Positions 7,523 through 23,193 of a stretch of 64,000 bases of DNA are shown piece after piece (position 1 is the stretch's first letter; each line of letters opens with the position of its first letter). The DNA comes from Roseovarius carneus (GTDB taxonomy: Bacteria; Pseudomonadota; Alphaproteobacteria; Rhodobacterales; Rhodobacteraceae): NCBI RefSeq assembly GCF_020141465.1, contig NZ_JAHSPD010000001.1:372001-436000 (forward strand), read 5' to 3'. The notes under the pieces were generated by a model that was not told where the DNA came from, ran no database searches, and was given only the letters and a program-made list of their open reading frames with translations. Both the position numbers and the translations under genes were made by a program.

Positions 7523-7594
7523 CGCACCGCCCTTTGGATGAGACGGGTGCGCGAGGGCATCAATCCCCCGCGCGCCCCGATTGGATCAGTAGCC

Positions 7595-8843: not shown

Positions 8844-8926
8844 ATATCGCGCGCCCTGGTTTTCCCTTGGGGTCGCGGGCGGCACGGTCCAGACCAGAGC
8901 AAGATCCAAGCGGAAGCGACGCCATC

Positions 8927-9367
8927 ATGACCCTCAGCCTACAGATCACACTCGGCACTAGCCTTTTGCTCATTTGCGCCGTTTTGCATATCTCCGCGCT
9001 GGTCATCGGCCTCCCGCTTCTGCAAGCTTTGGCCAACCGCCTCAAGACAGCCCGTAAAAAATACCGGGGCACCGCGCTTTTGGTCTTTGGGGTTCTGGTG
9101 ATCGTGGTGGCGCATACGTTGCAAATCTGGATCTGGGCGGCGGCGATCTTTGCCACGGGCGCGTTTCCAGATTTCGCGACAAGCTTTTACTTCCCCACCA
9201 CGACCTACACCACGCTGGGCTATGGCGATATGGTTCTGACCGAAGGGTGGCGCAGTTTCGGCACCTTCGCCGCGATCACTGGGCTTTTAACGTTCGGCAT
9301 CAGCACCGCTTTTTTGATCAACCTGATCGGGCGGATCATGCCCGCCCTGACAGACCACAAACATTAG
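8927..9367 (+). CDS. Two-helix potassium-channel-like membrane protein
   Basis: Short ion-channel-family protein of 146 residues. The filter signature TTYTTLGYGDMVL (about 92-104) is preceded by a pore helix and flanked by hydrophobic segments at about 5-27, 47-75 and 112-138. There is no cytoplasmic RCK or other regulatory domain, and the protein stops soon after the last helix. The start at 8927 is preferred to an upstream in-frame ATG because it begins directly before the first membrane helix. It stands alone between two minus-strand operons. K+ selectivity is inferred from the filter only. Confidence 0.8.
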   Translation: MTLSLQITLGTSLLLICAVLHISALVIGLPLLQALANRLKTARKKYRGTALLVFGVLVIVVAHTLQIWIWAAAIFATGAFPDFATSFYFPTTTYTTLGYGDMVLTEGWRSFGTFAAITGLLTFGISTAFLINLIGRIMPALTDHKH

Positions 9368-9376
9368 GTCACACAC

Positions 9377-10786
9377 TCAGGAATCAAAGCCCACGCCGAA
9401 CCGATCAAGCATACGCAGCATCACGGGCCGCTGCCCGGTGCGGTCCTCATGGGCGAGGCCTTTTTGCGCCATCCGCACAGCAATGCTGCGCAACGGCTCG
9501 GGCGGGAAGGGCACGGGGAAACGGCGGTGCATGGAAAGTTCCGACGCCTCGGTCTTCTTGCCCTCCAGCTGATCGAGCATCGCCCCCGCTGCAAACCGCG
9601 TGGCCGACACGCCCTGCCCAGTAAAGCCAAGCGCATAGGCCAGCCGCCCGCCCAGCGCGGTGCCAGTGAAAAACGTGATCCGCGCCGAGGTGTCGATGAT
9701 CCCGCCCCACGCATAGTCGAACCGGACACCCGCAAGGCTCGGGAAGGCCTCATTGAATTGCGTGGCCAGCCGGTCAAAGCTTTCCTCGCGGTGATACATC
9801 TCGGCGTCGCGTCCGCTGCCCTTGTGGTAGATCGCGTCATAACCCGCCCAGAGGATGCGATTGTCAGCCGTTTTGCGCAGGTAATGAAACTGGTTCCCGC
9901 TATCCGCGATGCCATGCGGCCCGGTCCAGCCGATGCTGGCCAGTTGTGCAGCGCTCAGCGGCTCGGTCACCAGAGAATAGTCAAAAATTGGGATAATCGC
10001 GGTCCGGAACCGTTTCAAAAGCGGCTCCGCGGCGTTGGTCGCCATGATCGCGCGGGCGGCAGCCACGGTGCCGCCGGGCGTGGTGAGGCGCAGCGCGGAT
10101 TTGGATTTCTTGAGCGCCGTCACACGGGTGCCCTCATGAAGTTCCACGCCCCGCGCAAGGCACGCAGCGCGCAGCCCTTCCACCAGCTTTGAGGGGTTCA
10201 CGAGCGCATAGGTCGGATCGAACACACCTGCCGAATAGACCGGGCTGTCGAGCTTGGCACGCAGGGCATCCCCCTCCAGATACGTGCTTGGCAGGCCATG
10301 TGCGGCAAAGCCCTCGGCCATGCTGCGCAGACCTTCGGCCTGCCAAGGAGTCGCGGCCACGTTGAGCTTGCCCGCGCGCTGGAACTCCGCGTCGATCTCG
10401 AAGTGTTCCAGATCGCGCTCCAACCCTTCAACATTCTCCACGCCCAGCCGGATCAGGCGATCCGCCTCGCGGGGATATCTTTCCATCGCATTGGAAATAC
10501 CATGGCTGATCGAGGGCGCGCAAAATCCGCCGTTGCGCCCCGAGGCCTCCCCGCCGCAGCGCCCGCCCTCCAGCACCACAATCCGCGCATCCGGCATCCG
10601 TTCGCGCGCCTTGAGCGCGCTCCACAGCCCTGTGAAACCGCCGCCGATAATCGCCAGATCACAGGTGATATCCGTCGCCAATGCCGCATCCATCGGGCGG
10701 GGTGCAATTGTGCTGAACCAATAGGGATCGGGGCTTGCGCCCGCGTAGGGCTTGCCGGGTATCGCGATTGCAAATGGCGCAGTCAT
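9377..10786 (-). CDS. FAD-dependent amine oxidase, PuuB-like (DAO family)
   Basis: Predicted FAD oxidoreductase of 469 residues. The dinucleotide-binding motif CDLAIIGGGFTGLWSA is near residue 38, followed by EASGRNGGF. Near the C-terminus is GYDAIYHKG and the second FAD-contact stretch ALGFTGQGVSATRFA. The closest family I recognise is gamma-glutamylputrescine oxidase (PuuB), which turns an amine into an aldehyde plus ammonia or a smaller amine. Start 10786 (MTAPFAIAIPGK) is favoured over an upstream GTG. It is the last gene of the nine-gene operon, 11 bp after the aldehyde dehydrogenase, whose substrate it presumably makes. No PuuA-like ligase is nearby. Confidence 0.85.
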   Translation of the reverse strand: MTAPFAIAIPGKPYAGASPDPYWFSTIAPRPMDAALATDITCDLAIIGGGFTGLWSALKARERMPDARIVVLEGGRCGGEASGRNGGFCAPSISHGISNAMERYPREADRLIRLGVENVEGLERDLEHFEIDAEFQRAGKLNVAATPWQAEGLRSMAEGFAAHGLPSTYLEGDALRAKLDSPVYSAGVFDPTYALVNPSKLVEGLRAACLARGVELHEGTRVTALKKSKSALRLTTPGGTVAAARAIMATNAAEPLLKRFRTAIIPIFDYSLVTEPLSAAQLASIGWTGPHGIADSGNQFHYLRKTADNRILWAGYDAIYHKGSGRDAEMYHREESFDRLATQFNEAFPSLAGVRFDYAWGGIIDTSARITFFTGTALGGRLAYALGFTGQGVSATRFAAGAMLDQLEGKKTEASELSMHRRFPVPFPPEPLRSIAVRMAQKGLAHEDRTGQRPVMLRMLDRFGVGFDS

Positions 10787-10797
10787 AGCAGCCTCCT

Positions 10798-12303
10798 TCA
10801 CTTCAGCTTGCGGCCCCCGGAGCCCAGAAACCAATCATCGGGATAGGGGTACCACCAGTCCTGACGGACGGGCTTGTGATCCAATATCACCATTTTCGTG
10901 CGGCGGAAGGCATCAAGTCCTTGCCGCCCCAACTCGCGCCCAAGGCCTGAGGCTTTCCAGCCACCAAAGGGCAGCGCATCATTATCAATCAGCGGGTTAT
11001 TGATCCACACCATCCCCGCCTCAAGCTGCGCATGGGCTTCATGCGCCTCCTCCAGAGACGTGGTGAAGACGGACGCACCAAGGCCGAACCTAGAGGCATT
11101 TGCCATGCGCAGGCCCGTGTCAAAGTCGCGCACCCGCGTGATAGCCACAACGGGGCCGAAACACTCCTCCTGCATCAGGGCCATGTCAGGGGTGCACTCG
11201 GTCAGGATCGTCGGCGCATAGAACCAGCCCACTGGGTGCTCGGCGGGGATACATCCCCCGCAAACCACGGTCGCGCCCTTCGCCACCGCATCGGCCACCA
11301 GACGCTCCACCTTCTGCCGGGCGGCCTCGGACACCATCGGCCCGATCTCGGACTTGTCCAACCCGTTGCCAATGCGCAGTCGAGCGGTTTCCGCCGCAAA
11401 CACCGCGACGAAAGCGTCATGCACCTCTTCGACCACAAACATCCGCTCGGTCGAGGTGCAGACCTGCCCGCTCATGTGAAACGCGCCTGTGACGGCCCCG
11501 GCGGCGGCCACGTCGATGGGCGCGTGGGCCGAGATGATCATCGGGTCCGATCCGCCCGCCTCGATCACGGCGGGCTTCATCCGGCGCGCGGCCTCGGCGG
11601 CCACGGTTTGCGCCGCTTTGACCGACCCGGTGAAGGCCACGGCGTGCGTTTGCTCGCTCGCCACCAGCGCTGCCCCCGTATCGGCCCCACCGGGCAGGCA
11701 GGCGATCAAGCCTTCGGGCAACCCATCAAACACTTTCATAAATTCCAGCGTCGACAGCGTGGTCAGCTCCGCAGGTTTCACCACACACCCATTGCCCGCC
11801 GCGAGCGACGCGGCCACAGTCCAGCACATCAGCAGAATGGGAAAGTTGAACGGCATGATATGGGCCGAGACACCCAGCGGCTCATATTTGGCGAATTGCA
11901 GCGATCCGGCTTGGGTCGTCCCGGCGAGCTTGCCCGCCTCATCGCGGGCCATTTCGGCATAATAACGGAAGATCGGCGCACAATTGGCGAGTTCGCCTAT
12001 CGCCTCGGGGTAGGGCTTGCCCATCTCGCGGCTCATCAGGATGGCGCAGTCTGTGTGGTCCGTGGTCTCGATCCGGTTGGCCAGCGCATGCAAAACGCCC
12101 GCGCGGGATTTAGCATCCACCTGCGCCCATTCTTTTTGAGCCGTGCCGACAGTGGCCAAGGCCCTGTCCATCTCCGCCGCAGTCACCTCGCCGCGTTGGC
12201 CAACCACCGCCAAAGTGGCGGGGTCGATCACATCATGCGCGTCCCCGGAACTGGCGTGAAAGCCGGGCGAGATATAGAAGCGAGGGGTCAGGGGGGCGGC
12301 CAT
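10798..12303 (-). CDS. NAD(P)-dependent aldehyde dehydrogenase
   Basis: Oxidises an aldehyde to the acid. It has 501 residues, standard for the superfamily. The cofactor motif AFTGSVKAAQT, the general-base Glu in VIEAGGSDP, and the catalytic Cys in HMSGQVCTSTER are all present. The C-terminal PFGGWKASGLGRE is typical. The EAGG in place of the common ELGG is a minor change. It most resembles succinate-semialdehyde-type enzymes, but the natural aldehyde is probably the product of the downstream amine oxidase. It is 24 bp from the cupin gene before it. Confidence 0.88.
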   Translation of the reverse strand: MAAPLTPRFYISPGFHASSGDAHDVIDPATLAVVGQRGEVTAAEMDRALATVGTAQKEWAQVDAKSRAGVLHALANRIETTDHTDCAILMSREMGKPYPEAIGELANCAPIFRYYAEMARDEAGKLAGTTQAGSLQFAKYEPLGVSAHIMPFNFPILLMCWTVAASLAAGNGCVVKPAELTTLSTLEFMKVFDGLPEGLIACLPGGADTGAALVASEQTHAVAFTGSVKAAQTVAAEAARRMKPAVIEAGGSDPMIISAHAPIDVAAAGAVTGAFHMSGQVCTSTERMFVVEEVHDAFVAVFAAETARLRIGNGLDKSEIGPMVSEAARQKVERLVADAVAKGATVVCGGCIPAEHPVGWFYAPTILTECTPDMALMQEECFGPVVAITRVRDFDTGLRMANASRFGLGASVFTTSLEEAHEAHAQLEAGMVWINNPLIDNDALPFGGWKASGLGRELGRQGLDAFRRTKMVILDHKPVRQDWWYPYPDDWFLGSGGRKLK

Positions 12304-12327
12304 GGCAGGCTCCTTTTCACGCCGCGA

Positions 12328-12672
12328 TCAGCGGATCATGTAAACCTTTTTGATGGTGTCGTGCACGGTGCAGACGCCCTTCCAATCCTTGGGAAAAAAC
12401 GCCGCCGTGTCGGGGGTGATTTCGATCACATCGCCACCCATGTGCACATAGGTGCAGCGCCCCTCCAAGAAATGGCAAAACTCGTCGCTGGTCACGTGGC
12501 AGTCCCATTTGCCCGGCGTGCAGATCCACAAGCCACATTCGGATTGCCCATCCGGCCCCTTGTGCAGCACGCGGCCCGAGACATGGCTGGTGCCTTCGAT
12601 CATCGTGGGGATGGTGCCCCAATCGACCACATCGGTGATCTCAAGGGGGTTTCTCATAACGGGAGTTTTCAT
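12328..12672 (-). CDS. Cupin-domain protein (DUF861/cupin_3), copy 1
   Basis: Single-domain cupin of 114 residues in the ureidoglycine aminohydrolase-like family. The core CTPGKWDCHVTSDEFCHFLEG holds the Glu/His metal-ligand pattern, followed by EITPDTAAFFPKDW and a closing strand VHDTIKKVYMI. It is clearly a paralogue of the next gene upstream, sharing CTPG-W, DEFCHF, G-TY and the FP--W block. Start is preceded by GAGGAT. The reaction is unknown; members of this family are often small accessory enzymes or binding proteins in amine and purine degradation. Confidence 0.8.
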   Translation of the reverse strand: MKTPVMRNPLEITDVVDWGTIPTMIEGTSHVSGRVLHKGPDGQSECGLWICTPGKWDCHVTSDEFCHFLEGRCTYVHMGGDVIEITPDTAAFFPKDWKGVCTVHDTIKKVYMIR

Positions 12673-12681
12673 CGGATATCC

Positions 12682-13041
12682 TCAGCTCAGCATGTAAATG
12701 TTGCGGATGGTCTCGTGCACTTCGGCCTCGCCGGACCACCCTTCGGGGAAGAGAACGCAGGTGCCGGGGGTGACTTCGATCGCCTCTCCGTCATCCGAAC
12801 GATAGGTGGCGCGGCCACTCACGAAATGACAAAACTCATCGCGCGGCAGGCTGAGGCGCCAGCGGCCCGGCGTGCAATCCCAGATGCCCGTTTCGGGAAT
12901 ATTGCCCGGCCCTTTGTGCAAAAGCCGCCCGGTGGAATGGGACGCCCCCGCCAGCGCATCGGGCTGCACCCCCCAATCCATGAGATCATCATAGGTCGTG
13001 GCCCCGTGAATATGCGGCGCAGAGGATTTGAGATCAGTCAC
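12682..13041 (-). CDS. Cupin-domain protein (DUF861/cupin_3), copy 2
   Basis: Second cupin of 119 residues, 9 bp upstream of copy 1. It shares the blocks GRLLHKGPG, CTPGRWR, DEFCHFVSGRATY, EVTPGT and FPEGWSGE with copy 1, so the pair is a tandem duplication that has diverged to perhaps half identity (by eye). The start is GTG and overlaps the stop of the glycosyltransferase gene (GTGA), so it is coupled to it. Whether the two act as a heteromer or on different intermediates cannot be told from sequence. Confidence 0.8.
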   Translation of the reverse strand: MTDLKSSAPHIHGATTYDDLMDWGVQPDALAGASHSTGRLLHKGPGNIPETGIWDCTPGRWRLSLPRDEFCHFVSGRATYRSDDGEAIEVTPGTCVLFPEGWSGEAEVHETIRNIYMLS

Positions 13042-14315
13042 CCCACCAACCCCGCCAGAAGGCGCGCGGCCTTTGCCGGGCCATTGCTGCCCTGCATATG
13101 AAGCGAGATTTTATCCAAGCGCGCCTGCATCCGGTCATCATTCAGGCAGGTCTCGATCTTGGCAATCAGCTCCTCCGGCGTCCATTCATAGCGGTCCGAG
13201 CGGAAGCCATAGCCCGTCTCCTGCACGCGCATCGCGTTGTCATGCCCGTCCCAGACATAGGGCATGATGATCGCGGGCTTGCCGAAATAGAGACATTCGG
13301 TGAAGGAGTTGTTGCCACCGTGATGGATCACCGCATCGACCTGCGGAATGACAGAGGGCTGCGGATACCAGCTTTGGATCACCACATTGTCAGGAATATC
13401 GTCATAGGCGTCCATATAATCGCCCACATTGACCAGCGCGCGGTAGCGCGATTTGCCGATCAGCGTGATCAGGCGCTTGAGCAGATCGGTGTCGCCCGCC
13501 CCAAGGCTGCCGAAGGAGATGTAGAGCAGCGGGCCGTCATTATTGGCCTTGAAAATGGGCACCTCGTAAGGCTCATCTTGGCGCACGCAGCCTTCCAGAT
13601 ATTGGAACCGTGCCGGGTCCAGAGGATGTTCGCGGGTGTAGGTCAGCGGCTCAGGATAGAGCATCAGGTTGAGATGCGGGGAGGCCTCGAAAAACTCGCC
13701 CAGCTTGTAGGGCGCCTCGTTATTCTCGGCCAGAAAGCTGTTGAAATCGGCGTGGATGGGCGCAATCACCTCCTCGAACCTGGCGCGGAAGGCGGCGTGG
13801 CCGGCGCGGTCCTCCTCGCCCATGCCCGACAGATGCGGCGGGATCGCGGGGTCCTCAATCTCGTTCTCCGAGCAACTGATGATGCGCACCCACGGCACGC
13901 CGAATTGCTTGATCGCGGGGAAAAGGATCACGTTGTCCACGGCGATCACATCGGGCTTGATGCGTGCCAGAACACCGGGCAAATCCTTTTGCGCCCATTT
14001 AGCGCTGTCCACGATCGCCTCCCAACATTCCTTCACGTAATTGTCGATCTGATCAATCGGCGCCTTGGCAAAGTTGGGGATATGCCCGTTGATGAAATCC
14101 TCCCAGAATTTCGCCATCTCCTCGGGCGGCATCGGCTCCGAGAGGGCCACGGGATGCGCCTCGAACCCGTATCCCTCGTAGATCTCGACGAAGCCGGGGT
14201 CCGACAGGAAGACCGCCTTATGCCCCATCTTGGTGATCGCCTGCGCGATGCCCACGGAATTGAGCGCGGGGCCAAAGGCGGCCTCGGGGAAGAAGGCGAA
14301 TGTCTTGGGGGTCAT
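13038..14315 (-). CDS. GT1-like glycosyltransferase, copy A
   Basis: GT-B fold protein of 425 residues related to macrolide/UDP-sugar transferases. The C-terminal donor-binding half has LLYISFGSLGAGDTDLLKR, QSWYPQPSVIPQVDAVIHHGG and NNSFTECLYFGKPAIIMP (about 330-365), matching the HGG-x-GT-x-E motif of GT1 with NNS replacing the usual xGT. At the N-terminus, where GT1 enzymes carry the catalytic His, this protein reads EAAFGPALN, so a Phe takes its place. It is embedded in an amine transport and oxidation operon, an unusual setting. Acceptor and sugar are unknown. Confidence 0.8.
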   Translation of the reverse strand: MTPKTFAFFPEAAFGPALNSVGIAQAITKMGHKAVFLSDPGFVEIYEGYGFEAHPVALSEPMPPEEMAKFWEDFINGHIPNFAKAPIDQIDNYVKECWEAIVDSAKWAQKDLPGVLARIKPDVIAVDNVILFPAIKQFGVPWVRIISCSENEIEDPAIPPHLSGMGEEDRAGHAAFRARFEEVIAPIHADFNSFLAENNEAPYKLGEFFEASPHLNLMLYPEPLTYTREHPLDPARFQYLEGCVRQDEPYEVPIFKANNDGPLLYISFGSLGAGDTDLLKRLITLIGKSRYRALVNVGDYMDAYDDIPDNVVIQSWYPQPSVIPQVDAVIHHGGNNSFTECLYFGKPAIIMPYVWDGHDNAMRVQETGYGFRSDRYEWTPEELIAKIETCLNDDRMQARLDKISLHMQGSNGPAKAARLLAGLVG

Positions 14316-14336
14316 GGGTCTCTCCTTATCTGTGGG

Positions 14337-15383
14337 TCAATTGGGGAAAATTCGCGTGTCTTTCGCGGCCCAGTTGAGGGTGATCTCGGCGCCAATTTGG
14401 GGACGCAGCGTATCAGCCTGATCGGCAGTCATGCGCGCGATCACGGGCGTGTCACTCAAGCTTGTGGATATGTGCAGCAGAAGGTCCAGCCCGTGATAGG
14501 CGATCTGCGCAATTTCGCCGCTCATAGCATTCTCGCCCGGCCCGTTCACATGCAAACGCTCAGGGCGGATGGCGGCCACGGCATGACCATCTGGCAGCGT
14601 ATGGTTTGCATGGATCTTGGTGTCCTGCGCCATGATGACCCCTTGCGCGATCACCACCGGCAGAAAGTTCATCACCCCGATGAACCCGGCGGCGAAGCGG
14701 CTCGCGGGGCGCTCATAGATTTCCTGAGGCGTGCCCACCTGCAAAAGGCCGCCATCTTGCATAATTGCCACCCGGTCGGCCATGACAAGCGCCTCTTCTT
14801 GGTCATGGGTGACCATGATGAAGGTGATCCCGAACTCGGCCTGAAGGCGCTTCAACTCAAGCTGCATCTCGCTGCGCAGCTTTTTATCCAGCGCGCCCAG
14901 AGGCTCGTCCAGCAGGAGAACCTTGGGGCGTTTCACCAAAGCACGGGCCAGCGCCACGCGTTGCTGTTGCCCACCCGAAAGCTGCGCAGGCTTGCGCGCC
15001 GCAAGGTGGCCCAGCTGAATCACTTCAAGGATATCCGTCACCCGCGCTTTCACCTGAGCCTTGGGCAGACCATCCATCTCAAGGCCATAGGCGATGTTCT
15101 GCATCACGCTCATATGCGGGAAAAGCGCGTAGGATTGGAACATGAGATTCACCGGACGCTTGTCCGGCGGTATGGCGGAAATCGACCGGCCCTCCAACAG
15201 GATATCACCCGCGCTCAGCCCCTCGAACCCGGCGAGCATCCGCAATAACGTGGTCTTGCCCGAGCCAGACGCACCCAACAAAGCGAAGAACTCATTCTCA
15301 AGGATATCGAGCGTCACGCCCTCCACCGCGCGCACGTCGCCAAAACGTTTGCTGACTGATTGCAGGGATAAAAGCACGCTCAT
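14337..15383 (-). CDS. potA: Polyamine-type ABC transporter ATPase (PotA)
   Basis: ATP-binding subunit of an importer, 348 residues. Walker A GASGSGKTTLLR (about 35), signature LSGGQQQRVALARAL (about 133), Walker B VLLLDEPLGALD and the switch His in VTHDQEEA are all seen; a TOBE domain occupies about 280-348. It overlaps potC by 4 bp. PotA-type ATPases serve spermidine/putrescine importers but also related amines, so the name marks family, not substrate. Confidence 0.9.
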   Translation of the reverse strand: MSVLLSLQSVSKRFGDVRAVEGVTLDILENEFFALLGASGSGKTTLLRMLAGFEGLSAGDILLEGRSISAIPPDKRPVNLMFQSYALFPHMSVMQNIAYGLEMDGLPKAQVKARVTDILEVIQLGHLAARKPAQLSGGQQQRVALARALVKRPKVLLLDEPLGALDKKLRSEMQLELKRLQAEFGITFIMVTHDQEEALVMADRVAIMQDGGLLQVGTPQEIYERPASRFAAGFIGVMNFLPVVIAQGVIMAQDTKIHANHTLPDGHAVAAIRPERLHVNGPGENAMSGEIAQIAYHGLDLLLHISTSLSDTPVIARMTADQADTLRPQIGAEITLNWAAKDTRIFPN

Positions 15384-16195
15384 TGTCCGGGCAAGCCCCC
15401 TTTGTTGAGCCGCTGCGACAGGGCCAGCGCCACGACTGACACGGCCATGACAAGCGTGGCCAGTGCGTTGATCTCGGGCGTCACGCCAAAGCGGATCATC
15501 GCAAAAATCTGCATCGGCAGGGTGATGGACGCACGCCCGGCACCAGCGGTGAAAAACGCGATGATGAACTCATCCACCGACAGGGTGAAGGCCAAAAGCG
15601 CGCCCGCCATGATCGCAGGCGCCAGCACCGGAAGGACCACGCGGCGCAGGGTTGTCGCCATGCTCGCGCCCAGATCGACGGAGGCCTCCACGATGGACCA
15701 ATCAAACCCTTTGAGCCGCGCGCGCACCACGGCGCAAACGAAGGCGAGGTTGAAAACCACATGCGCCATGATGATCGTATGCAGCCCCATCTGCACCCCC
15801 AAGAGCGAGAAAAAGCTCAGTAAAGCAATGGCCAGCACGATATCGGGGATGATCATCGGGGCAAAAATCACCGTCTCCAGCCACTTGCCATTGCGGCGGC
15901 GCAGCTCCACCCCCACGGCCAGAAGGGTGCCGAGCACGGTAGCCAGCACCGTGGAGATCAGGGCGACAAATAGCGTATTGCCCGCTGCCCTCAGGATATC
16001 GCTGTTCTGCCAAAGCGCGCTATACCATTTGGTGGAAAATCCCGTCCACGCAGTGGGCAATCCACCCTCGTTGAACGACAGGCCAACCAACACCGAAATC
16101 GGCACATAAAGAAACGCGAACACCACACCGAGGATGAGCAGCATCAGCCGGAAGGTGCCCCGCTCAACCACGGCCCACACCCCCGCCCGCCGCAC
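15380..16195 (-). CDS. potC: Polyamine-type ABC transporter permease (PotC)
   Basis: Inner-membrane permease of 271 residues with six predicted helices. The EAA loop is in VEASVDLGASMATTLRRVVLP (about 160-180). The start is GTG at 16195 and overlaps the end of potB by 32 bp; a shorter GTG start a few codons in is possible. Transcribed between potB and potA. It forms the channel with PotB. Confidence 0.88.
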   Translation of the reverse strand: MRRAGVWAVVERGTFRLMLLILGVVFAFLYVPISVLVGLSFNEGGLPTAWTGFSTKWYSALWQNSDILRAAGNTLFVALISTVLATVLGTLLAVGVELRRRNGKWLETVIFAPMIIPDIVLAIALLSFFSLLGVQMGLHTIIMAHVVFNLAFVCAVVRARLKGFDWSIVEASVDLGASMATTLRRVVLPVLAPAIMAGALLAFTLSVDEFIIAFFTAGAGRASITLPMQIFAMIRFGVTPEINALATLVMAVSVVALALSQRLNKGGLPGQ

Positions 16196-17021
16196 GCTCG
16201 GCCACTGTGGCCTGCACCATCAAAAGGCCCAGCATGATCGCAATGAGCACCATCGAGAGCGCCGCGCCAAAGGGCCAATCATTCGCGGTCAAGAACTGTG
16301 CGTAGACCAGATTGCCGATCATCTGAAACTGCCCACCGCCCAAGAGCGCGGGCGTCACAAAGTTCCCGATCGAGAGGACGAACACGAAGACAAAGCCAAC
16401 CGCGATCCCCGGCACCGTCATCGGCAAGGTGATGCGCCGGAACGTGGTCCAGCCCGACGCACCAAGATCGCGCGACGCTTCCGTCACCTCGGGGTTGAGA
16501 CGCGAAAGCGGCGCATAACAGCTCAGGATCACGAAAGGCAGGTAATTGTAGACAAGACCGATCACCACGGCACTTTCGGTATAGAGCATCTGGGGCAACT
16601 CACCCTCATACCCCACCCAGCGGGCGAGATTGACGATCAGGCCCTCGCGGTTCAAAAGCACGATCCACGCATAGGTCCGCACGAGATAATTGGACCAAAA
16701 CGGCAGCACCGCGAAGAAGAGAAGCATCGGCTGATGCCGTCTCGGCATGGCCGCAATCGCATAGGCCGCAGCGTAGCCCAGAACCACAGCAATGCCCGCC
16801 GAAAGCCCCGCAATCCCTGCGGATTTGAGGAATATCTGTGCATAGAGCGGATCAAACACCAGCGCGATATTCTCAAGCGTCCATGTATATTCGATCCCGC
16901 CGTAAATCCCACGCCGGAAGAAGGCGAGCACGAGGATCAGCCCGCAAGGAATGACCATCAACCCGGTCAGCCACAAGAGCGCCGGGGTCATCAGAAGGAG
17001 TGGCTTGCGATCAGGGGTCAT
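16164..17021 (-). CDS. potB: Polyamine-type ABC transporter permease (PotB)
   Basis: Inner-membrane permease of 285 residues with about six helices. The EAA loop is TEASRDLGASGWTTFRRITLP. The ATG at 17021 (MTPDRKPLLLM) is chosen; a TTG at 17060 would add 13 residues but lies inside an intergenic repeat and next to a terminator hairpin. It follows potD after a hairpin, so it is probably expressed at a lower level than the binding protein. Confidence 0.88.
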   Translation of the reverse strand: MTPDRKPLLLMTPALLWLTGLMVIPCGLILVLAFFRRGIYGGIEYTWTLENIALVFDPLYAQIFLKSAGIAGLSAGIAVVLGYAAAYAIAAMPRRHQPMLLFFAVLPFWSNYLVRTYAWIVLLNREGLIVNLARWVGYEGELPQMLYTESAVVIGLVYNYLPFVILSCYAPLSRLNPEVTEASRDLGASGWTTFRRITLPMTVPGIAVGFVFVFVLSIGNFVTPALLGGGQFQMIGNLVYAQFLTANDWPFGAALSMVLIAIMLGLLMVQATVAERAAGGGVGRG

Positions 17022-17039
17022 GCGCGCGGTGGGACCAGT

Positions 17040-17067
17040 GCATTTGGGTATTTGGACCAAGAAAAAG
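17040..17067 (+). repeat. Intergenic repeat, copy R1
   Basis: A 28-bp stretch with the pattern ATTTGGGTATTTGG followed by ACCAAGAAAAAG. It aligns by eye with copies at 26062-26089 (minus) and, more loosely, 42690-42722 and 42845-42876. The shared form is TATTT, two to four variable bases, then CAAGAAGAAG. It lies between potD and potB beside the terminator. Confidence 0.55.
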
Positions 17068-17092
17068 CCCCCGGCAGGGAGAGCGCCGGGGG
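17062..17092 (-). terminator. Intrinsic terminator/attenuator after potD
   Basis: On the minus strand an 8-bp perfect stem (CCCCCGGC pairing with GCCGGGGG) with a 9-nt loop is followed by GCTTTTTC. It sits 20 bp after the potD stop and before potB. It probably ends most transcripts after potD, giving more binding protein than permease, a common arrangement in ABC importer operons. Confidence 0.75.
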
Positions 17093-17111
17093 TAAGTCAC
17101 TCAGGGTCGCC

Positions 17112-18155
17112 TCAGTTGGCCGCTTTGATCTCGGAGACGAGGCGGGAGTAGTCCCGCTGCGCCACACCGACATCGCGAAGCTGCTCAAATTTCAGCATGT
17201 CCGCAGGAGCAATACCCATGTTGGGGAAGGCAGCGATCAGATCCTCACCAATGCCCGCCATGGCGGCCTCGTTGGGCACTTTGTAGAGGATGTTATTTGC
17301 GGCCCAGCGGTGATTATCCGCATCCAGCACGTAGTTGACGAACGCATAGGCCGCATCCTTGTTCTCGGACGCACTCAGGATCACCATCGTGTCCACCCAA
17401 AGGTCAGAGCCCTCCGACGGGATCATGTATTTGATATCTGCATTCTCGGCGATGCCGTAGTTGCACCAGCCATCCCAGGCCTGCACCAGTTCGGCCTCAC
17501 CCGAGACAAGCTTGGAAAAGAAGGTCGTGTCGTCATAGGCCAGAAGCGTGCCCTTGGCCTCGACCAGCAAGTCGCGCACCTCGGCCATCTTATCCGCGTC
17601 CGTTTCATTCACCGAATAGCCCAGCGCCAGCTGCCCGGCGGCCAGAAGCCAGCGATCGGTGGCGAGCATGGTTGTCTTGCCAGCCACGTCCTCGGACGGC
17701 TTCAAAAGGTCATTCCATGACGTGGGGCTATCAACCAGATCGGAGCGATAGCAAAGCCCCGTGGTCCCCCACGCATAGGGGACAGAGAACGTGTTGGCCG
17801 GATCATGCGGAAGCTGCATCGCCTCGGCGTAAAGATTGGCCATGTTGGGCAGCTTGGCCGGGTCGAGCGTTTCGGCCAGGCCGAGATTGTTGAGCACCTC
17901 GGCGAAGGGCGACGAGACGAACACCACGTCATAGCCCACGCCCTTGGACGCGATCAGCTTGCCCATGATCTCTTCATTGGTGCCGTGCAGAACCAACTCT
18001 GCCGAGGCACCCGTTTGGGCATTGAAATTGTCGATGGCGTCTGGGGCCATGTAGCCATCCCAGTTTGAGATAACGAGATCCTGCGCAAGCGCAGGCGTGG
18101 CGGTGAGAAGCAGCGCGGCGCCAAGGGCGCGGGCGGCTGAACAGTGTGATATCAT
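17112..18155 (-). CDS. potD: Polyamine-type substrate-binding protein (PotD/PotF)
   Basis: Periplasmic binding protein of 347 residues, first gene of the nine-gene operon. A Sec signal peptide (ALGAALLLTATPALAQ) ends near residue 25. The mature protein begins DLVISNWDGYMAPD, and has VPYAWGTTG and LVQAWDGW. These aromatic and acidic positions bind the amine in PotD/PotF. The start at 18155 (MISHCSA) is preferred over one 39 bp upstream because it leads directly into the signal peptide. Exact ligand unknown; polyamine or another cationic amine is likely. Confidence 0.9.
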   Translation of the reverse strand: MISHCSAARALGAALLLTATPALAQDLVISNWDGYMAPDAIDNFNAQTGASAELVLHGTNEEIMGKLIASKGVGYDVVFVSSPFAEVLNNLGLAETLDPAKLPNMANLYAEAMQLPHDPANTFSVPYAWGTTGLCYRSDLVDSPTSWNDLLKPSEDVAGKTTMLATDRWLLAAGQLALGYSVNETDADKMAEVRDLLVEAKGTLLAYDDTTFFSKLVSGEAELVQAWDGWCNYGIAENADIKYMIPSEGSDLWVDTMVILSASENKDAAYAFVNYVLDADNHRWAANNILYKVPNEAAMAGIGEDLIAAFPNMGIAPADMLKFEQLRDVGVAQRDYSRLVSEIKAAN

Positions 18156-18333
18156 AGGGGCGATCTCCGTGTTGGGCTCTGCGGCACCCCACATAAGGGC
18201 CCGCTTGCTTTGATCTTGCGCGACTCTGCGTTCGCTGTAAGATTAGTATTGTTGATGCAAAAAAAACTTCAATTTGTTTTTGATGTTCTTTTTGCACGCG
18301 CTTTTGGGCGCGCAAAAGCGTGGAGGCATTTGC
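18156..18333. promoter_or_regulatory. Divergent promoter region of potD operon and gntR
   Basis: A 178-bp gap between two divergently read units. It contains A- and T-tracts at about 18259-18290. An inverted repeat TTTTGCACGCGC / GCGCGCAAAA (18290-18301 and 18308-18317) lies 16-44 bp before the gntR start. The repeat is a good candidate operator for the GntR protein and could control both directions. Confidence 0.5.
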
Positions 18334-19266
18334 ATGGCGCGGCTGCGCGGAAATACTCGACAGAACCACGTAACGCTGGCCAGGCGGATTGTCGAGGTTG
18401 CGCTGGAGCGCGGCTTACGTAACGGCGACCACCTGCCCGAGCAAGTGCTGTCACAGGCCTGCAGCGTGTCGCGGACACCGATTCGATCTGCACTCAAGAT
18501 ACTGGAAGAAAACAATATTGTCATACGGCAGGAGGAGCGCGGGTTCTTTCTTAGGGTGGACCCCAGCGAGGGTCTTCCCGGCGGAGGCGCCGCATTGGAG
18601 GAGGTGGAGGACACGCTTGCGGCGCGTATCCTCAAGGACCGTGCGGAGCGGCGGATTGCCGACGTCCAATCTGTGAGCGCCCTTGTACGCCGCTATGGCG
18701 CCCCACGGTCTGCTGTATTAATAGCGCTAAAAATACTCTCATCAGATGGAATCGTGACACAGCTTCCTGGCCGCGCATGGGCATTTCAGCCAATGCTCGA
18801 CACGCCCAACGCCCAGAGTGAGGGCCTCGCCTTTCGTCTCGCGCTGGAGCCGCAAGCCATCCTCGCCCCCGGTTTTGCCATGGACGGGCAGCGCGCAAGG
18901 CTGATGCGCGACCAGATGGCAGAGCTTGGCGCGCGGCCAGAAGGGCGCATCGGGCAAACCACGTTTCATAGGCTTGATTGCGATTTCCATACCATGATCG
19001 CCGATAGCGCGGGCAACCGGTTTCTGCGCGGTGCACTTCTGGCCCATCAAAAGCTGCGCGGTGCCACACAAACTGATCAAGCGCTGCCCGATTTTCGGAT
19101 GCGCCAAGCACTGGAAGATCATCTCGGTATCCTCGACAGCCTTGAGCGGAGCGAGCTTGATCTCGCCGCCGATCAGATGGTGCTGCACTTGCGCCGTGCC
19201 CAGATCCGCCGTCCCAAAGCGGCCAATCGCGGCCTGCCGCCGCAACGCAGTGGCGGGATGACATGA
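18334..19266 (+). CDS. GntR-family regulator with two winged-helix-like domains
   Basis: Transcription regulator of 310 residues, presumed to control the divergent amine operon. Residues about 15-70 are a GntR winged helix (EQVLSQACSVSRTPIRSALK). Residues about 80-145 look like a second one (SALVRRYGAPRSAVLIALKI followed by SSDGIVTQLPGRAW). The rest is an FCD-like alpha-helical effector domain (FHRLDCDFHTMIADSAGNRF). Typical FCD regulators have one DNA-binding domain and 220-250 residues. The ATG at 18334 has GGAGG 8 bp upstream. The stop overlaps the second glycosyltransferase by 4 bp. Confidence 0.82.
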   Translation: MARLRGNTRQNHVTLARRIVEVALERGLRNGDHLPEQVLSQACSVSRTPIRSALKILEENNIVIRQEERGFFLRVDPSEGLPGGGAALEEVEDTLAARILKDRAERRIADVQSVSALVRRYGAPRSAVLIALKILSSDGIVTQLPGRAWAFQPMLDTPNAQSEGLAFRLALEPQAILAPGFAMDGQRARLMRDQMAELGARPEGRIGQTTFHRLDCDFHTMIADSAGNRFLRGALLAHQKLRGATQTDQALPDFRMRQALEDHLGILDSLERSELDLAADQMVLHLRRAQIRRPKAANRGLPPQRSGGMT

Positions 19267-20606
19267 GCCCACCCCCCGTGATCGCCTTCTTCCCCGAAGC
19301 AAGCTTCGGTGCGGCGCTTAACTGCGTCGGCATCGCACAGGAGCTGCACCGCAAGGGGGCTGTACCGGTGTTTATCTGCCATGCAGGGTTCACTGGGGTT
19401 TTTGCCCAATATGGTTTTAAGGAATACCATCTACCGGCTGCCGCAACCGACGCGCAGACCGAGGAATACTGGCAATCCTTCCTGCGCACCCATCTGGACG
19501 ATTTCAACCTTTCGCCGCTGGAGCAATTGCCGCGCTACGTGGCCCCGACATGGGAGGCAATCGTCGACACGGCCATCGACGCGGAGGCGGGGCTCGCAAC
19601 CCTTTTGGCGCGGATCAGACCCAGCGCCATCGTCCTCGACAACGTGATCATGTTCCCGGCCATCGCGTCCGCGGGCGTGCCGTGGGTGCGTGTCATCTCC
19701 TGCGCCGAGACAGAACTGCCGGATGCAAATGTCCCGCCCTACCTCTCGGGGCTGAGCGCTGATGATCCGGGCCGGGCCACGTTCGAGGCTGCAGCACTCA
19801 CGGCCTGTGCAGCACCCCATGCGCGTTACAACCACTTTCGCGCCGCGCGCGGCCTCAAGCCCCTCCCTCCGGGTCAGTTCTTGGAGCCGTCACCGGATTT
19901 GAACCTGCTGCTCGCGCCCAGCGCAATCCGTCACACGCGCGCGGCACATCTCCCCGAGGAGCGCTTCGTTTTCCTTGAGGGCTGTGTGCGTGATGAGGCG
20001 CATTTCGACGTGCCCGCCCTGCCGCGCAACCAAGGCCCGCTGATCTATCTCAGCTTCGGCAGCCTCGGCGCGATCGACACTGACCTCATCTCGCGTATGA
20101 TCGCGGCCTTCGCCGATCTGCCGGCGCGGTTTTTCGTCAATGTCGGCGATCACCTGGAGGCCTATGCCGCCGTGCCTGACAACGTCTATCTTGGGAGTTG
20201 GTTTCCCCAGCCGTCCATTGTGTCCCAAGCCGCTCTTTTCATCCATCACGGCGGCAATAACAGCTATTGCGAGGCGCTGTATCATGGCGTCCCCTCGCTG
20301 GTGATGCCCTATTGCTGGGACGGTCACGACAACGCGCACCGCGCTGTGCAAACCGGCACTGGGCTGCACATGCACCGTGCCAATTGGAGCGACGCGGAGT
20401 TGCGCCAGACAGTTATGGATCTCGCTCAGGACAGGAAAATACGCAACCGTATGCAAGGCATGTCACTAACTATGAAAGCCGATCCTGGCACGGTTCGCGC
20501 CGCTGAAGCCATCCTGCACACGGCCTCCTGCGCCAAGGCACCGCGCCTTAGAGAAACAAGAAATCCGCCTCCGTCAGGTCAATCACCTGCACCCCGCTCA
20601 GCGTGA
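19263..20606 (+). CDS. GT1-like glycosyltransferase, copy B
   Basis: Paralogue of the glycosyltransferase at 13038-14315, 447 residues, coupled to the gntR gene through an ATGA overlap. Shared blocks include FFPEASFGAALNCVGIAQ, LIYLSFGSLGAIDTDLIS, WFPQPSIVSQAALF and IHHGGNNSYCEALYHGVP. As in copy A, the GT1 catalytic His position is Phe (ASFGAALN). The last 24 or so residues are a proline-rich tail without counterpart in copy A; they overlap the 3' end of the convergent RTX gene by 59 bp and look like read-through extension. Function presumably linked to the same substrate as copy A. Confidence 0.8.
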   Translation: MSPPPVIAFFPEASFGAALNCVGIAQELHRKGAVPVFICHAGFTGVFAQYGFKEYHLPAAATDAQTEEYWQSFLRTHLDDFNLSPLEQLPRYVAPTWEAIVDTAIDAEAGLATLLARIRPSAIVLDNVIMFPAIASAGVPWVRVISCAETELPDANVPPYLSGLSADDPGRATFEAAALTACAAPHARYNHFRAARGLKPLPPGQFLEPSPDLNLLLAPSAIRHTRAAHLPEERFVFLEGCVRDEAHFDVPALPRNQGPLIYLSFGSLGAIDTDLISRMIAAFADLPARFFVNVGDHLEAYAAVPDNVYLGSWFPQPSIVSQAALFIHHGGNNSYCEALYHGVPSLVMPYCWDGHDNAHRAVQTGTGLHMHRANWSDAELRQTVMDLAQDRKIRNRMQGMSLTMKADPGTVRAAEAILHTASCAKAPRLRETRNPPPSGQSPAPRSA

Positions 20607-23193
20607 TCTGATCGCTCGGCGCACCATAGCGCACCACAGTGTCAGGGCCGCTCTGCGCCAAATCAAGATCACCCCATCCGAGACCCGTATGATGCAACAA
20701 CACCGTATCAAGGCCGCTCTGGAAATCGGTGATCACATCGGCCCCATCACCGGGGATGAACGCAAACGTATCCGCCCCAAGCCCACCAATCAGTCGGTCA
20801 TCGCCCGCGCCGCCAAAAAGGCTGTCACGCCCGCCATTACCACGCAGCATATCATTGCCATGCCCACCCGCGAAAATGTTGTCGCCTTCATCCCCGATAA
20901 GCTGATCACTGAAAGTCGTGCCGACCACCCTCTCTATGGAGACCAGATCAACGATATCCGCCCATGTGCCGGTACCAAGCGTGGGGCCAAGCCGCGTCCA
21001 GACCTCTTTGTCGGTTAGGTCAAGACTGACCCAGATTGCGGCACCGAAGAGCGAAAAATCCGCCGTATCCGTGCCCCCACGCCCATCCATAATCTCAAGG
21101 GGGGTCCGCGCGGGCATGGGGGTGAGATCGCTCACGTAGCTAAAGCTGTTGTCCATTGCATTGCCATAGAACTGATCAATGCCGCGCGTGCCAATGATGT
21201 TTTCCACCTCTTGCAGGCTGGCAAGCGCGCGCCATGTCCCGCTGAGCACATCGCCACCATCACGCGTCCAGACCGCAGAGCCGGACAAGTCCATATCCAC
21301 CCAGATCGCCGCATCAAAACGCGAGAAATCCGCCGTGTCAGTGCCGCCGCGCCCATTGATGATATCGACCGCACGAGAGGGCACAGCCCCGCCCACATAT
21401 CCAAAACTATTGTCCTGCGCGTCTCCGGCGAAATGATCCGCCCCCGCCGTCCCGACGACGTTCTCTACATTGGCCAGATCCATGATCTCCCGCCACACAC
21501 CGCTTTGAACCGTCGGGCCATCGCGTGTCCAGACCTCCTTGACGCTCAGCGTGAGGTCCACCCAGATCGCCGTGTCGAATTGCGAGAAATCCGCCCAATC
21601 CTGCCCCATGCGCCCGTCGAAAAAATCCATGCCCTGTGCCGCGCCATCCGGGGCCATCATGAAGTGATTGCTGCCTGCGTCGCCGTAGACCCGATCAACA
21701 AAATCCGTGCCGATGATCGCGTCGATTCCATCCATCTCGGCGATACGCCGCCATTGGCCTGTGTCCGCACGCGACCAAACACTCTGGGTCGCACTGCCCA
21801 TGGCCAGATCAGCCCAGATACCGGCACCAAGGCCCGAGAAATCCGCGTGATCAAACCCTTCGCCACCGCTGAGCCTATCGCCATCCCGATCCGCCACCAG
21901 ACGGTCGTCGCCTGCGCCACCAATCAGGACGTCCTGCCCGGCACCACCCACGAGCGTGTCATCCCCCTCCCCGGCGTCAATCCTGTCACTACCACTCAGC
22001 CCCCTGATCGCATCCGCGCCACTGCCACCAAAAAGCGTGTCCGCAGCGTCCGTTCCAGTCACAAGGCCGCCACGCGGATCAAGGATCTGCACCGCCACAT
22101 CTCCGGAAGCTTGCTCCCAAGCGACCACGATCCGGCCATCGCTCAGCACCTCGGCCGAGGCGAGAAACGCACCCGGCGCGACCCCAGCCACCAATGTGTA
22201 AGCGGCCCCTTGAGGGCTGGCGGTTGCGTCAAATACCTGCCCGACATAGGTGCCAAGCGTGGCGTCATAGTAAAAGCCCACAAACCCGCCATCCGGCAGC
22301 GCCGCGGCAAATGCGTTACTCTGCTCCCCCGCGACCTGCGCGTTCAGAAGCACCTCAGCGGTTACAAAGCTCCCGTCTGGCGCGATGATCCGGCCATAAG
22401 TGTCGAGCCCGTCCGCAGGTGGCCCACCCACCTCTTTTGTGTAGGTCACGAGGTAATTCCCATTGCTCAGCGTGATCACCTGCGCGCCCGGCTCGGGCAC
22501 CCAAGTATTGGAAATCACCTGATCCACACCGATGGGATCGCCCTGCGCATCAATGCGGCGAAACTCCAGATCGCTGCCTTGCTGAAACACCACAATACCG
22601 TCACCACCCGCACCCAGCGCGATGGCAGGGTTGGTCTGATTGAAGGTGGAGTCGCTATTGAGGGTCCGGGTGACGTCCCCCGAGGTGCCAAACCCGTTCC
22701 ACTCATATGTGCTGAGCGTGATGTCACGGTCCGCGCCCGTAATGGCCGTGAAAACATGCTGCACATTATTACCCTGCACGGCCACATCCACTTGCGTGCC
22801 TGCCGGGATCGGAGACATGACTGAGGAGATGATGCTCTGCTGCGCACCGCCCCGCGCATCGACAAAGCTCAGCCATGCCTCGGTCAGCGTGGCGTTGGGC
22901 GCGCTCAGCGCGTAAGAGACGACAAACTGCCCCGGAAACCCCGGTAAAATAGCCACGTCCGGCATTGCGAGGGAAACCCCGCCCGTGCCCTCGGCGATGG
23001 TGATTGCATCCCCCGCCATATCGCCGCGCGCGTCAAACCGCTGTGCGATGATCCGCTCCGTGCCTGCACCGTCATCCGAATGGAACACGACGACGAAACT
23101 GCCATCGGCAAAAACGGCCACGTCCGGGTCAGCACGGCTATCCCCGCCCAACGCATGGGCAAGGCTCGGCGTGTTCCAGCTTTGCAAACTCAT
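20548..23193 (-). CDS. Secreted RTX-type calcium-binding repeat protein
   Basis: Large predicted extracellular protein of 881 residues. Residues about 25-370 have several strand-rich repeats with the form DG-FVVVF or DGRIVVAWE, suggesting a beta-propeller-like domain. Residues 388-446 and 762-805 hold hemolysin-type Ca2+ nonapeptides (GGAGDDRL, GGSGADAI). Between them four 84-90 residue units lie in tandem. There is no Sec signal, and the hydrophobic C-terminus ending DFLFL suits type I secretion; no T1SS genes are in the window. No catalytic domain recognised. Start ATG at 23193 has GAGG upstream, inside a hairpin. Confidence 0.85.
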   Translation of the reverse strand: MSLQSWNTPSLAHALGGDSRADPDVAVFADGSFVVVFHSDDGAGTERIIAQRFDARGDMAGDAITIAEGTGGVSLAMPDVAILPGFPGQFVVSYALSAPNATLTEAWLSFVDARGGAQQSIISSVMSPIPAGTQVDVAVQGNNVQHVFTAITGADRDITLSTYEWNGFGTSGDVTRTLNSDSTFNQTNPAIALGAGGDGIVVFQQGSDLEFRRIDAQGDPIGVDQVISNTWVPEPGAQVITLSNGNYLVTYTKEVGGPPADGLDTYGRIIAPDGSFVTAEVLLNAQVAGEQSNAFAAALPDGGFVGFYYDATLGTYVGQVFDATASPQGAAYTLVAGVAPGAFLASAEVLSDGRIVVAWEQASGDVAVQILDPRGGLVTGTDAADTLFGGSGADAIRGLSGSDRIDAGEGDDTLVGGAGQDVLIGGAGDDRLVADRDGDRLSGGEGFDHADFSGLGAGIWADLAMGSATQSVWSRADTGQWRRIAEMDGIDAIIGTDFVDRVYGDAGSNHFMMAPDGAAQGMDFFDGRMGQDWADFSQFDTAIWVDLTLSVKEVWTRDGPTVQSGVWREIMDLANVENVVGTAGADHFAGDAQDNSFGYVGGAVPSRAVDIINGRGGTDTADFSRFDAAIWVDMDLSGSAVWTRDGGDVLSGTWRALASLQEVENIIGTRGIDQFYGNAMDNSFSYVSDLTPMPARTPLEIMDGRGGTDTADFSLFGAAIWVSLDLTDKEVWTRLGPTLGTGTWADIVDLVSIERVVGTTFSDQLIGDEGDNIFAGGHGNDMLRGNGGRDSLFGGAGDDRLIGGLGADTFAFIPGDGADVITDFQSGLDTVLLHHTGLGWGDLDLAQSGPDTVVRYGAPSDQITLSGVQVIDLTEADFLFL
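20854..21843 (-). repeat. Four tandem 84-90 residue units inside the RTX protein
   Basis: Units begin with DFS at residues 451, 535, 622 and 712. Each reads roughly DFS-x-F-x-AIWVDL, then VWTR, G-W, VE-x-VVGT, and GD-x-DN-F, before an RTX-like DGRGGTD linker. Spacing is 84, 87 and 90 residues. They are neither standard RTX nonapeptides nor a domain I can name. Confidence 0.75.

Follow-up and report, generated by a model that had tools for sequence, protein, structure and literature searches.

Positions 9,377 to 20,606 of a 64,000-nucleotide stretch of the Roseovarius carneus genome (positions 372,001 to 436,000 of contig NZ_JAHSPD010000001.1; the whole stretch is referred to below as the window) carry eleven genes that may form a mobile amine-catabolism operon, in which conjugation to a UDP-sugar replaces gamma-glutamylation and the sugar is recycled. 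We put the probability of this reading at about 0.47. At its center stands a real and recurrent system consisting of a glycosyltransferase (GT1a), a cupin, a polyamine-type importer, and an aldehyde dehydrogenase (ALDH). All eleven genes are open, and their order and strands are those given in the initial annotation: the minus strand reads potDBCA-GT1a-cupA-cupB-ALDH-FADox, the last gene coding for an FAD-dependent oxidase, and gntR and the gene of a second glycosyltransferase, GT1b, diverge from it. Since the intergenic gaps from potD to FADox range from −32 to 51 bp (in order: 51, −32, −4, 21, −4, 9, 24, and 11 bp), a single transcription unit is plausible for the minus-strand run.

In the proposed route, the PotABCD-type importer would take up an amine, bound unlike spermidine, and GT1a, perhaps together with GT1b, would place a sugar, probably N-acetylglucosamine (GlcNAc) or glucose, on the amine nitrogen. 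The conjugate would be converted to an aldehyde, with FADox as the oxidant where present, and the aldehyde to an acid by ALDH, to which extended clusters would add a plant-type aminoaldehyde dehydrogenase. The sugar would be freed by the oxidation itself or by cupins acting on the N-glycoside, phosphorylated to a sugar-1-phosphate by an AmgK-like kinase, and converted to a UDP-sugar by a GlmU-like enzyme; for this, the R. carneus strain would need its other AmgK-like gene together with general enzymes of the GlmU/MurU type. Each of these reactions, the nitrogen linkage, the identity of the sugar, the cycle, the aldehyde-forming step in core clusters, and the function of the cupins are predicted from sequence.

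Recurrence and spread of the gene set

Relatives of GT1a numbered 191 among 207 pattern-matching stretches (one genome per species); the best 80 were fetched, and all 80 loci were analyzed. Their GT1a proteins are 68 to 95% identical to GT1a over the best segment, and they come from Rhodobacterales, Hyphomicrobiales, other Alphaproteobacteria, Halomonas, Aidingimonas, Marinomonas, Pseudomonas, and some gammaproteobacterial metagenome-assembled genomes. Short contigs are common among the 80; the well-covered set comprises 52 loci of at least 18 kb in which GT1a lies near position 10,000. A cupin gene lies within 300 bp of GT1a in 73 of the 78 loci with room downstream. When partner genes were scored as present at 50% identity or more, cupB was found in 75 of the 80 loci (50 of the 52 well-covered ones), ALDH in 57 (46), potA in 60, potC in 58, potB in 57, and potD in 55 (43 each), cupA in 52 (41), GT1b in 45 (40), gntR in 38 (33), and FADox in 30 (27). 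The initial annotation had proposed to check whether the glycosyltransferases, cupins, and importer recur together. They do, in Rhodobacterales, Hyphomicrobiales, Halomonas, Marinomonas, and Pseudomonas and on plasmids of Rhizobium, Shinella, Pararhizobium, and Ruegeria; a glycosyltransferase-cupin-ALDH set is present in two haloarchaea.

We also profiled presence in 148 genomes of the same order, the R. carneus genome included, with thresholds of our own choice (E values of 1e-60 for GT1a, PotD, and FADox, 1e-25 for cupB, and 1e-140 for ALDH); for FADox, ALDH, and PotD, about 10 to 13 candidates were scored per genome where more existed. Matches to GT1a, cupB, PotD, and ALDH each occur in 7 of the 148 genomes, and these are the identical seven. 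FADox is matched in two genomes, both among the seven carriers (Fisher P = 0.002, uncorrected for kinship). At the profile threshold, GT1a was not found in the five other genomes of the same genus listed, and it occurs in 8 of 398 genomes of a phylum-wide sample. A search of the R. carneus genome with GT1a at E 0.001 returned GT1a itself and GT1b only.

Plasmid records matching GT1a at E 1e-60 number 15, of which ten were inspected. In a quick tree of the glycosyltransferases, some gammaproteobacterial rows (Halomonas, Marinomonas, and Halieaceae) are nested among alphaproteobacterial rows. Together, the patchy presence, these nested rows, and the plasmid copies point to horizontal movement of the gene set between bacteria. 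A Pseudomonas frederiksbergensis plasmid (L108) bears an apparent decayed copy, with glycosyltransferase matches in three pieces and a 68–amino acid (aa) FADox-like piece.

More distant arrangements were found in actinomycetes. In Streptomyces L107 and Nonomuraea L113, potD-B-C-A and a glycosyltransferase gene follow one another in the same order, at 37 to 52% identity and with no cupin match at either locus; in Nonomuraea, a 235-aa open reading frame with no Pfam family stands between potA and the glycosyltransferase gene. A third actinomycete record (L112) has the glycosyltransferase without potDBCA.

Several variants of the gene set were seen besides. A GT1a-cupin pair without the Pot operon occurs in other gene settings at L064, L065, L068, L069, L071, L072, L074, and L079 and may thus represent an independent module. 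At the Halieaceae locus L043, GT1a and FADox stand with a flavin amine oxidase–type gene, a PhyH gene, and an MFS transporter replacing Pot. A saccharopine-dehydrogenase-like gene follows ALDH in several clusters (L041, L048, L078, and L106), in Pararhizobium gei by annotation; the two members tested reached no NCBIfam cutoff.

Glycosyltransferases, sugar-activation genes, and cupins

GT1a (positions 13038 to 14315, minus strand) and GT1b (19263 to 20606, plus strand) belong to the MGT/UDPGT-type GT1 family. The GT-B fold of GT1a is apparent in an AlphaFold2 model (predicted local distance difference test, pLDDT, of 90.9), which Foldseek matched to UGT203A2 (7mco) with a template-modeling score of 0.90. 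GT1b, initially annotated as a second copy of the same transferase, turned out to be a paralogue 45% identical to GT1a. The quick tree, for which 115 of 127 glycosyltransferase rows were kept by length and which came with a long-branch warning, separates GT1a (72 rows) from GT1b (43 rows), each with 100% support in the Shimodaira-Hasegawa–like approximate likelihood ratio test. In view of the two separate clades, a recent duplication was rejected, subject to the same warning.

The catalytic His of GT1 enzymes has been lost in both groups. At its position, GT1a has Pro16, and Pro is found in all 80 rows of the GT1a family that have a residue there (81 rows, one gapped); GT1b has Ala, as do 36 of the 46 GT1b rows, the other 10 having Ser. 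Two archaeal glycosyltransferase rows and the Streptomyces L107 row also read GP at this site. The C-terminal sugar-nucleotide motif HHGGNNS..E...DGHDN is invariant in the 81 GT1a rows and, with one exception at H358, in the 46 GT1b rows. Asp127, which by analogy takes the place of the dyad Asp, and Glu11, Glu150, Glu152, and Asp155 are invariant in the family alignment. Two published cases link such a loss to transfer to nitrogen: according to excerpts of the respective articles, plant UGT76C2/3, with Cys for the catalytic His, prefer N-acceptors over O-acceptors (PMC12246196), and human UGT2B10, with Leu for His, is an N-conjugating enzyme (PMC7781194 and PMC8781437).

Many related loci contain genes that would supply an activated sugar. 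An extra gene for an APH-family kinase is located between cupB and ALDH in 32 of the 52 well-covered loci (36 of 80 overall); its best named models are those of AmgK, at 215.6 bits for L008 and 179.8 bits for L014 against a cutoff of 500. A GlmU-like uridylyltransferase gene is present in 14 of the 80 loci, all 14 of which have the AmgK-like kinase. The two members tested are stand-alone proteins of ~250 aa without the acetyltransferase domain. The one from L008 (244 aa) aligns to the N-domain of GlmU only, as expected of a pyrophosphorylase domain, scores below the cutoffs for full-length GlmU, and keeps residues that we take to be the GlcNAc contacts of GlmU. At this locus, the kinase gene overlaps cupB by 4 bp, and the GlmU-like gene overlaps a second ALDH gene by 4 bp. 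Within the 52-locus set, the kinase accompanies 26 of 27 FADox loci (the exception is L006) versus 6 of 25 FADox-less loci, and the GlmU-like gene occurs together with FADox in 13 of 14 cases. Among all 80 loci, the kinase is found in 27 of 30 FADox loci (the exceptions are L003, L006, and L011).

The haloarchaeal clusters offer a parallel. On Natrialba magadii pNMAG01 and in Natronorubrum aibiense, the order is IclR, glycosyltransferase, one cupin, ALDH, a ROK-family kinase, and a phosphoglucomutase-family gene. Identities are, respectively, 60 and 59% for the glycosyltransferase, 57 and 59% for the cupin (to cupB), and 56 and 55% for ALDH. Similarity is to ROK glucokinase models for the kinase and to archaeal GlmM for the mutase, in no case reaching the NCBIfam cutoff. 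Neighboring genes code for a glutamine-synthetase-family protein, an amidotransferase, and FAD oxidoreductases in N. magadii and for a Pot-type importer, an aminotransferase, and an FAD oxidoreductase in N. aibiense. Thus, the combination of a sugar kinase with an enzyme of a UDP-sugar route recurs with non-homologous genes, and the haloarchaeal pair may be an independent solution of the same sugar-supply problem.

The AmgK-like kinase and GlmU-like enzyme, or the ROK kinase and mutase, would turn a free sugar into a UDP-sugar or its sugar-1-phosphate precursor; both the glycosyltransferase family and these activation genes support the use of a UDP-sugar. An AmgK-like kinase and a GlmU-like uridylyltransferase that keeps the GlcNAc-site residues make GlcNAc the likely sugar of the conjugate; given the archaeal genes, glucose is possible. 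The suggestion of the initial annotation that a sugar stands in for the gamma-glutamyl group is partly supported by the sugar kinase and uridylyltransferase genes of related operons and by the lost catalytic His. It could be argued that the glycosyltransferases and the kinase are drug- or toxin-modifying enzymes beside an unrelated amine importer, as the best NCBIfam matches of GT1a and GT1b are macrolide glycosyltransferase models and the kinase falls into the APH Pfam family. However, the macrolide models give 112 and 128 bits against a cutoff of 260, AmgK models give the kinase its highest scores, and GT1a strictly co-occurs with PotD and ALDH; we regard this explanation as very improbable.

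The two cupins, cupB (12328 to 12672, minus strand, 114 aa) and cupA (12682 to 13041, minus strand, 119 aa, overlapping GT1a by 4 bp), are both EutQ-like Cupin_3 proteins (PF05899) and are 45% identical to each other. The most constant partner of GT1a is cupB. The closest structural neighbors of its AlphaFold2 model (pLDDT 96.3) are EutQ and DUF861 proteins of unknown function, and ppnP is also among the neighbors; searches with this model and that of GT1a identify neighbors in fold, not function. Since ppnP cleaves N-glycosidic bonds of nucleosides, the likeness in fold makes a role of the cupins in releasing the sugar from the conjugate conceivable.

The cupins could also act in an oxidase-free route, through an isomerization of the glycosylamine that oxidizes the amine carbon at the expense of the sugar (Amadori-type internal redox or transimination) and yields the aldehyde for ALDH; clusters with FADox would then be a later variant. 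Core clusters do hold glycosyltransferase, cupins, and ALDH without FADox, cupin folds include sugar-acting enzymes, and the ppnP likeness counts for this route as well. Against it, the sugar would be altered and so not recyclable as such, and the nearest solved cupins (DUF861 and EutQ) offer no isomerase precedent, which leaves the route quite improbable. We give a similarly low probability to a version in which the sugar serves as a recyclable carrier: the His-less GT1 would load a hexose or N-acetylhexosamine on the amine nitrogen, the cupins would process the glycosylamine, in oxidase-free core clusters the amine carbon would become an aldehyde while still on the sugar and with no oxidase involved, and clusters with kinase and uridylyltransferase genes would return the freed sugar to UDP-sugar.

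Importer, oxidation genes, and control region

The binding protein (potD, 17112 to 18194, minus strand, start possibly at 18155) is a PotD/PotF relative with an altered but conserved pocket. Its best match among solved structures has an E value of 8e-39, and it scores 129 bits with the PotD equivalog model against a cutoff of 582. Of the acidic residues E36, D168, E171, and D257, which we take to be the ligand residues of Escherichia coli PotD, three of four are lost (Gly for E36, Thr for D168, and Trp for E171), leaving D257. Across 56 rows, the Gly, Thr, and Asp do not vary, while the Trp lies outside that reading; the same rows show no variation at the pocket-matched positions W45, D46, G47, Y48, T179, R181, W240, D241, W266, D268, and Y304. 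The Streptomyces and Nonomuraea proteins keep most pocket residues, and the N. aibiense sequence is different and more PotD-like. From a pocket that is changed yet invariant, we infer a single, non-spermidine ligand; classical polyamine specificity was considered and rejected on account of the changed residues. In excerpts of a study of Ruegeria pomeroyi transporter mutants (PMC10130141), polyamine uptake is assigned to potFGHI (SPO3466-3469), and no link from the operon’s importer to any substrate was found there.

The other importer genes, all on the minus strand, code for a PotB-type permease (16164 to 17060; best NCBIfam model PotB, 211 bits, below the cutoff of 348), a PotC-type permease (15380 to 16195; assigned by PF00528 and its position in the gene order), and a PotA-type ATPase (14337 to 15383; TIGR01187 at 377.5 bits, above the cutoff of 355.6). 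A terminator-like hairpin is located at 17068 to 17092 on the minus strand, inside the 51-bp gap between potD and potB; it may have arisen by chance (14 such sites versus 10.6 expected) and perhaps allows a higher dose of binding protein than of permease.

The changed pocket could accommodate a larger ligand, as would be needed if an already glycosylated amine were imported and GT1a, whose reaction type can be reversible, worked in reverse to give UDP-sugar and free amine. A kinase with a uridylyltransferase, or a ROK kinase with a mutase, would be needless if the glycosyltransferase itself yielded UDP-sugar. Import of a glycosylated amine, one of the options raised in the initial annotation, is less likely because genes for activation of a free sugar would then be superfluous, and we consider the reverse reaction distinctly improbable.

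FADox (9377 to 10786, minus strand, 469 aa) is an FAD-dependent amine oxidase or dehydrogenase of the DAO family (PF01266, E 1.8e-52). It had been described as PuuB-like, which is borne out at the superfamily level; no PuuB model is among the matches listed, the best NCBIfam model, TIGR03329, gives 213.8 bits, below the cutoff of 632.8, and no solved structure was matched at E 1e-5. ALDH (10798 to 12303, minus strand, 501 aa, PF00171) is nearest to BADH, aminobutyraldehyde, and SSADH models, with no cutoff reached among the 25 NCBIfam models shown (the PuuC model gives 256.8 bits against 850); its best matches to solved structures, SSADH and BADH, are near 1e-81 in a search limited to 1e-80. 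A second ALDH is present in 23 loci, and the sole one tested (L008) resembles plant aminoaldehyde and betaine-aldehyde dehydrogenases at E 1e-172.

FADox is an accessory member of the system, and an essential role for it is not supported. In the well-covered set, 25 of the 52 loci lack it in their flanks. When 20 FADox-less loci were submitted to a search for FADox elsewhere in the genome, 19 genomes were searched at E 1e-60, of which 15 show no match, three Pseudomonas genomes have a 58 to 59% match elsewhere, and one has a 33% match.

These absences, which leave the oxidation step at the loci concerned unexplained, weigh against amine conjugation with sugar recycling, as do several other observations. 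Neither the kinase nor the GlmU-like gene was found in the 64-kb window, despite the presence of FADox; the R. carneus genome has one AmgK-like gene (42%), in a setting that reads tsaE-amgK-murU by eye. No cupin is adjacent to GT1a in 5 of the 78 loci with room downstream (L043, L051, L061, L062, and L075). NCBIfam cutoffs are not reached by FADox, ALDH (among the models shown), the PotD-like protein, or the AmgK-like kinase, and the loci are related, so that Fisher values overstate significance. Loss of the catalytic His in GT1a is not proof of N-transfer. In the excerpted text of PMC12246196, substitutions C20A and D112A in UGT76C2 each lowered N-transfer and raised O-transfer, while the figure legend, unlike the text, places C20A with the N-favoring forms; excerpts of PMC7781194 describe the catalytic His as important for primary amines as well and report no gain of N-activity in an H-to-L mutant. 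The acceptor of GT1a might therefore be a tertiary amine or some other nucleophile.

A related alternative is that the acceptor is a later intermediate, such as an aldehyde hydrate, carboxylate, or hydroxyl; the glycosyltransferase would then serve to trap or detoxify a reactive compound formed by amine oxidation rather than to start the pathway. This would fit the dispensability of FADox, whereas GT1a-cupB, usually with ALDH, is constant, and also the occurrence of GT1a-cupB without importer or ALDH in other settings, for example at L069 and L071, the former adjoining a tartrate-dehydrogenase-like gene. Yet the His that acts as a base for hydroxyl acceptors is lost, and Streptomyces L107 and Nonomuraea L113 preserve the order of potDBCA followed by the glycosyltransferase. 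On balance, we find trapping of a later intermediate unlikely.

The regulator (gntR, 18274 to 19266, plus strand, likely start ATG at 18334) is a GntR-FCD protein (PF00392 and PF07729). The divergent control region between potD and gntR extends from 18156 to 18333. In 34 of 43 equivalent gaps of relatives, it contains TTGACGTA, and these 34 of a total of 78 occurrences fall in 10.6 kb of divergent gaps (all loci amount to 1.44 Mb); two of the 34 sites (L016 and L049) have unlike surroundings by eye. The element was not found in the R. carneus gap itself or in 9 of the 43 related gaps (L003, L008, L010, L028, and five from Pseudomonas). The gaps of L026, L030, L034, and others share a common element resembling GAACAGCGAATACAnnTTGACGTATTTTT. 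An operator search found no perfect palindrome with 6-bp arms in more than 3 of 44 divergent gaps. Beyond the operon, inspection by eye revealed TRAP-type transporter genes adjoining it at 5481 to 8680 (minus strand), a small membrane protein with a TLGYGD potassium-channel-like filter at 8867 to 9367 (plus strand), and an 881-aa RTX-like protein with GGxGxD-type repeats at 20548 to 23193 (minus strand).

Comparison with known systems

A search of open-licence PubMed Central, in which long results were sampled, returned no glycosyltransferase in amine catabolism and no description of such a gene set, which is weak evidence that the system is previously undescribed. If the proposed route is correct, catabolism would have a new logic, based on an activated sugar that many of the organisms concerned have their own genes to recycle. 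Numerous genes whose annotation stops at glycosyltransferase, cupin, or spermidine/putrescine transporter would gain a role, and some annotated “polyamine importers” would carry another substrate. The system is patchy but widely scattered and seems to move horizontally among some bacteria, with a related set in some salt-loving archaea.

The solved structures closest to GT1a in both sequence and fold are the spider-mite GT1 enzymes UGT202A2 and UGT203A2; unlike the GT1a family with its Pro, UGT203A2 keeps His at the aligned position (GH). A bacterial origin has reportedly been proposed for spider-mite UGT202/203. In human UGT1A4 and UGT2B10, too, the catalytic His is replaced, by Pro in UGT1A4, and in the excerpted sources tertiary amines serve as acceptors, but these are drug glucuronidation enzymes that act outside any catabolic operon.

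The sugar-activation genes recall AmgK-MurU salvage of peptidoglycan sugar, in which an anomeric sugar kinase followed by a uridylyltransferase leads to a UDP-sugar. They differ from it in that the kinase of the operon family is distinct (40 to 43% identical to the AmgK-like protein of the R. carneus genome), the uridylyltransferase of related loci is GlmU-like, and both genes are located inside the amine operon. A likeness to 2-aminoethylphosphonate catabolism is seen in TIGR03329 as the best model for FADox, PhnT2 as the second best for PotA, and PhnAcAld_DH as a weaker one for ALDH. All three are below cutoff and no C-P cleaving gene is among the operon families found, and an aminophosphonate pathway was rejected on these grounds.

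Bacterial amine routes of the Puu type, which include the E. coli gamma-glutamylputrescine route and its relatives Pau and Ipu, protect the amine with glutamate. The operon resembles them in polyamine-type import, conjugation before oxidation, an FAD oxidase, an aldehyde dehydrogenase, and later removal of the conjugated group. It differs in having GT1 and cupins instead of a PuuA-like ligase and a PuuD-like amidotransferase and in the sugar-activation genes of its relatives. No PuuA-type gamma-glutamyl ligase was found among the operon proteins, and the genome has six Gln-synt_C genes, none in the 64-kb window. The initial statement that a PuuA-like ligase is absent holds for the operon, but elsewhere in the genome a Puu-type cluster (L092) has two glutamine-synthetase-like genes (171 and 160 bits with the gamma-glutamylputrescine synthetase model, cutoff 650), an amidotransferase, and a DAO oxidase; a further locus (L091) combines a PotF-type importer with another DAO oxidase and an aminotransferase. 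Mere relocation of PuuA was considered and rejected, as the PuuA-like cluster L092 has its own oxidase and amidotransferase. Given this separate cluster, the operon is most likely an additional amine route rather than an incomplete Puu pathway. Because the defining ligase was sought and not found in it, the operon is not a member of the Puu family; by analogy, it appears to work like that family, through conjugation, oxidation, and release.

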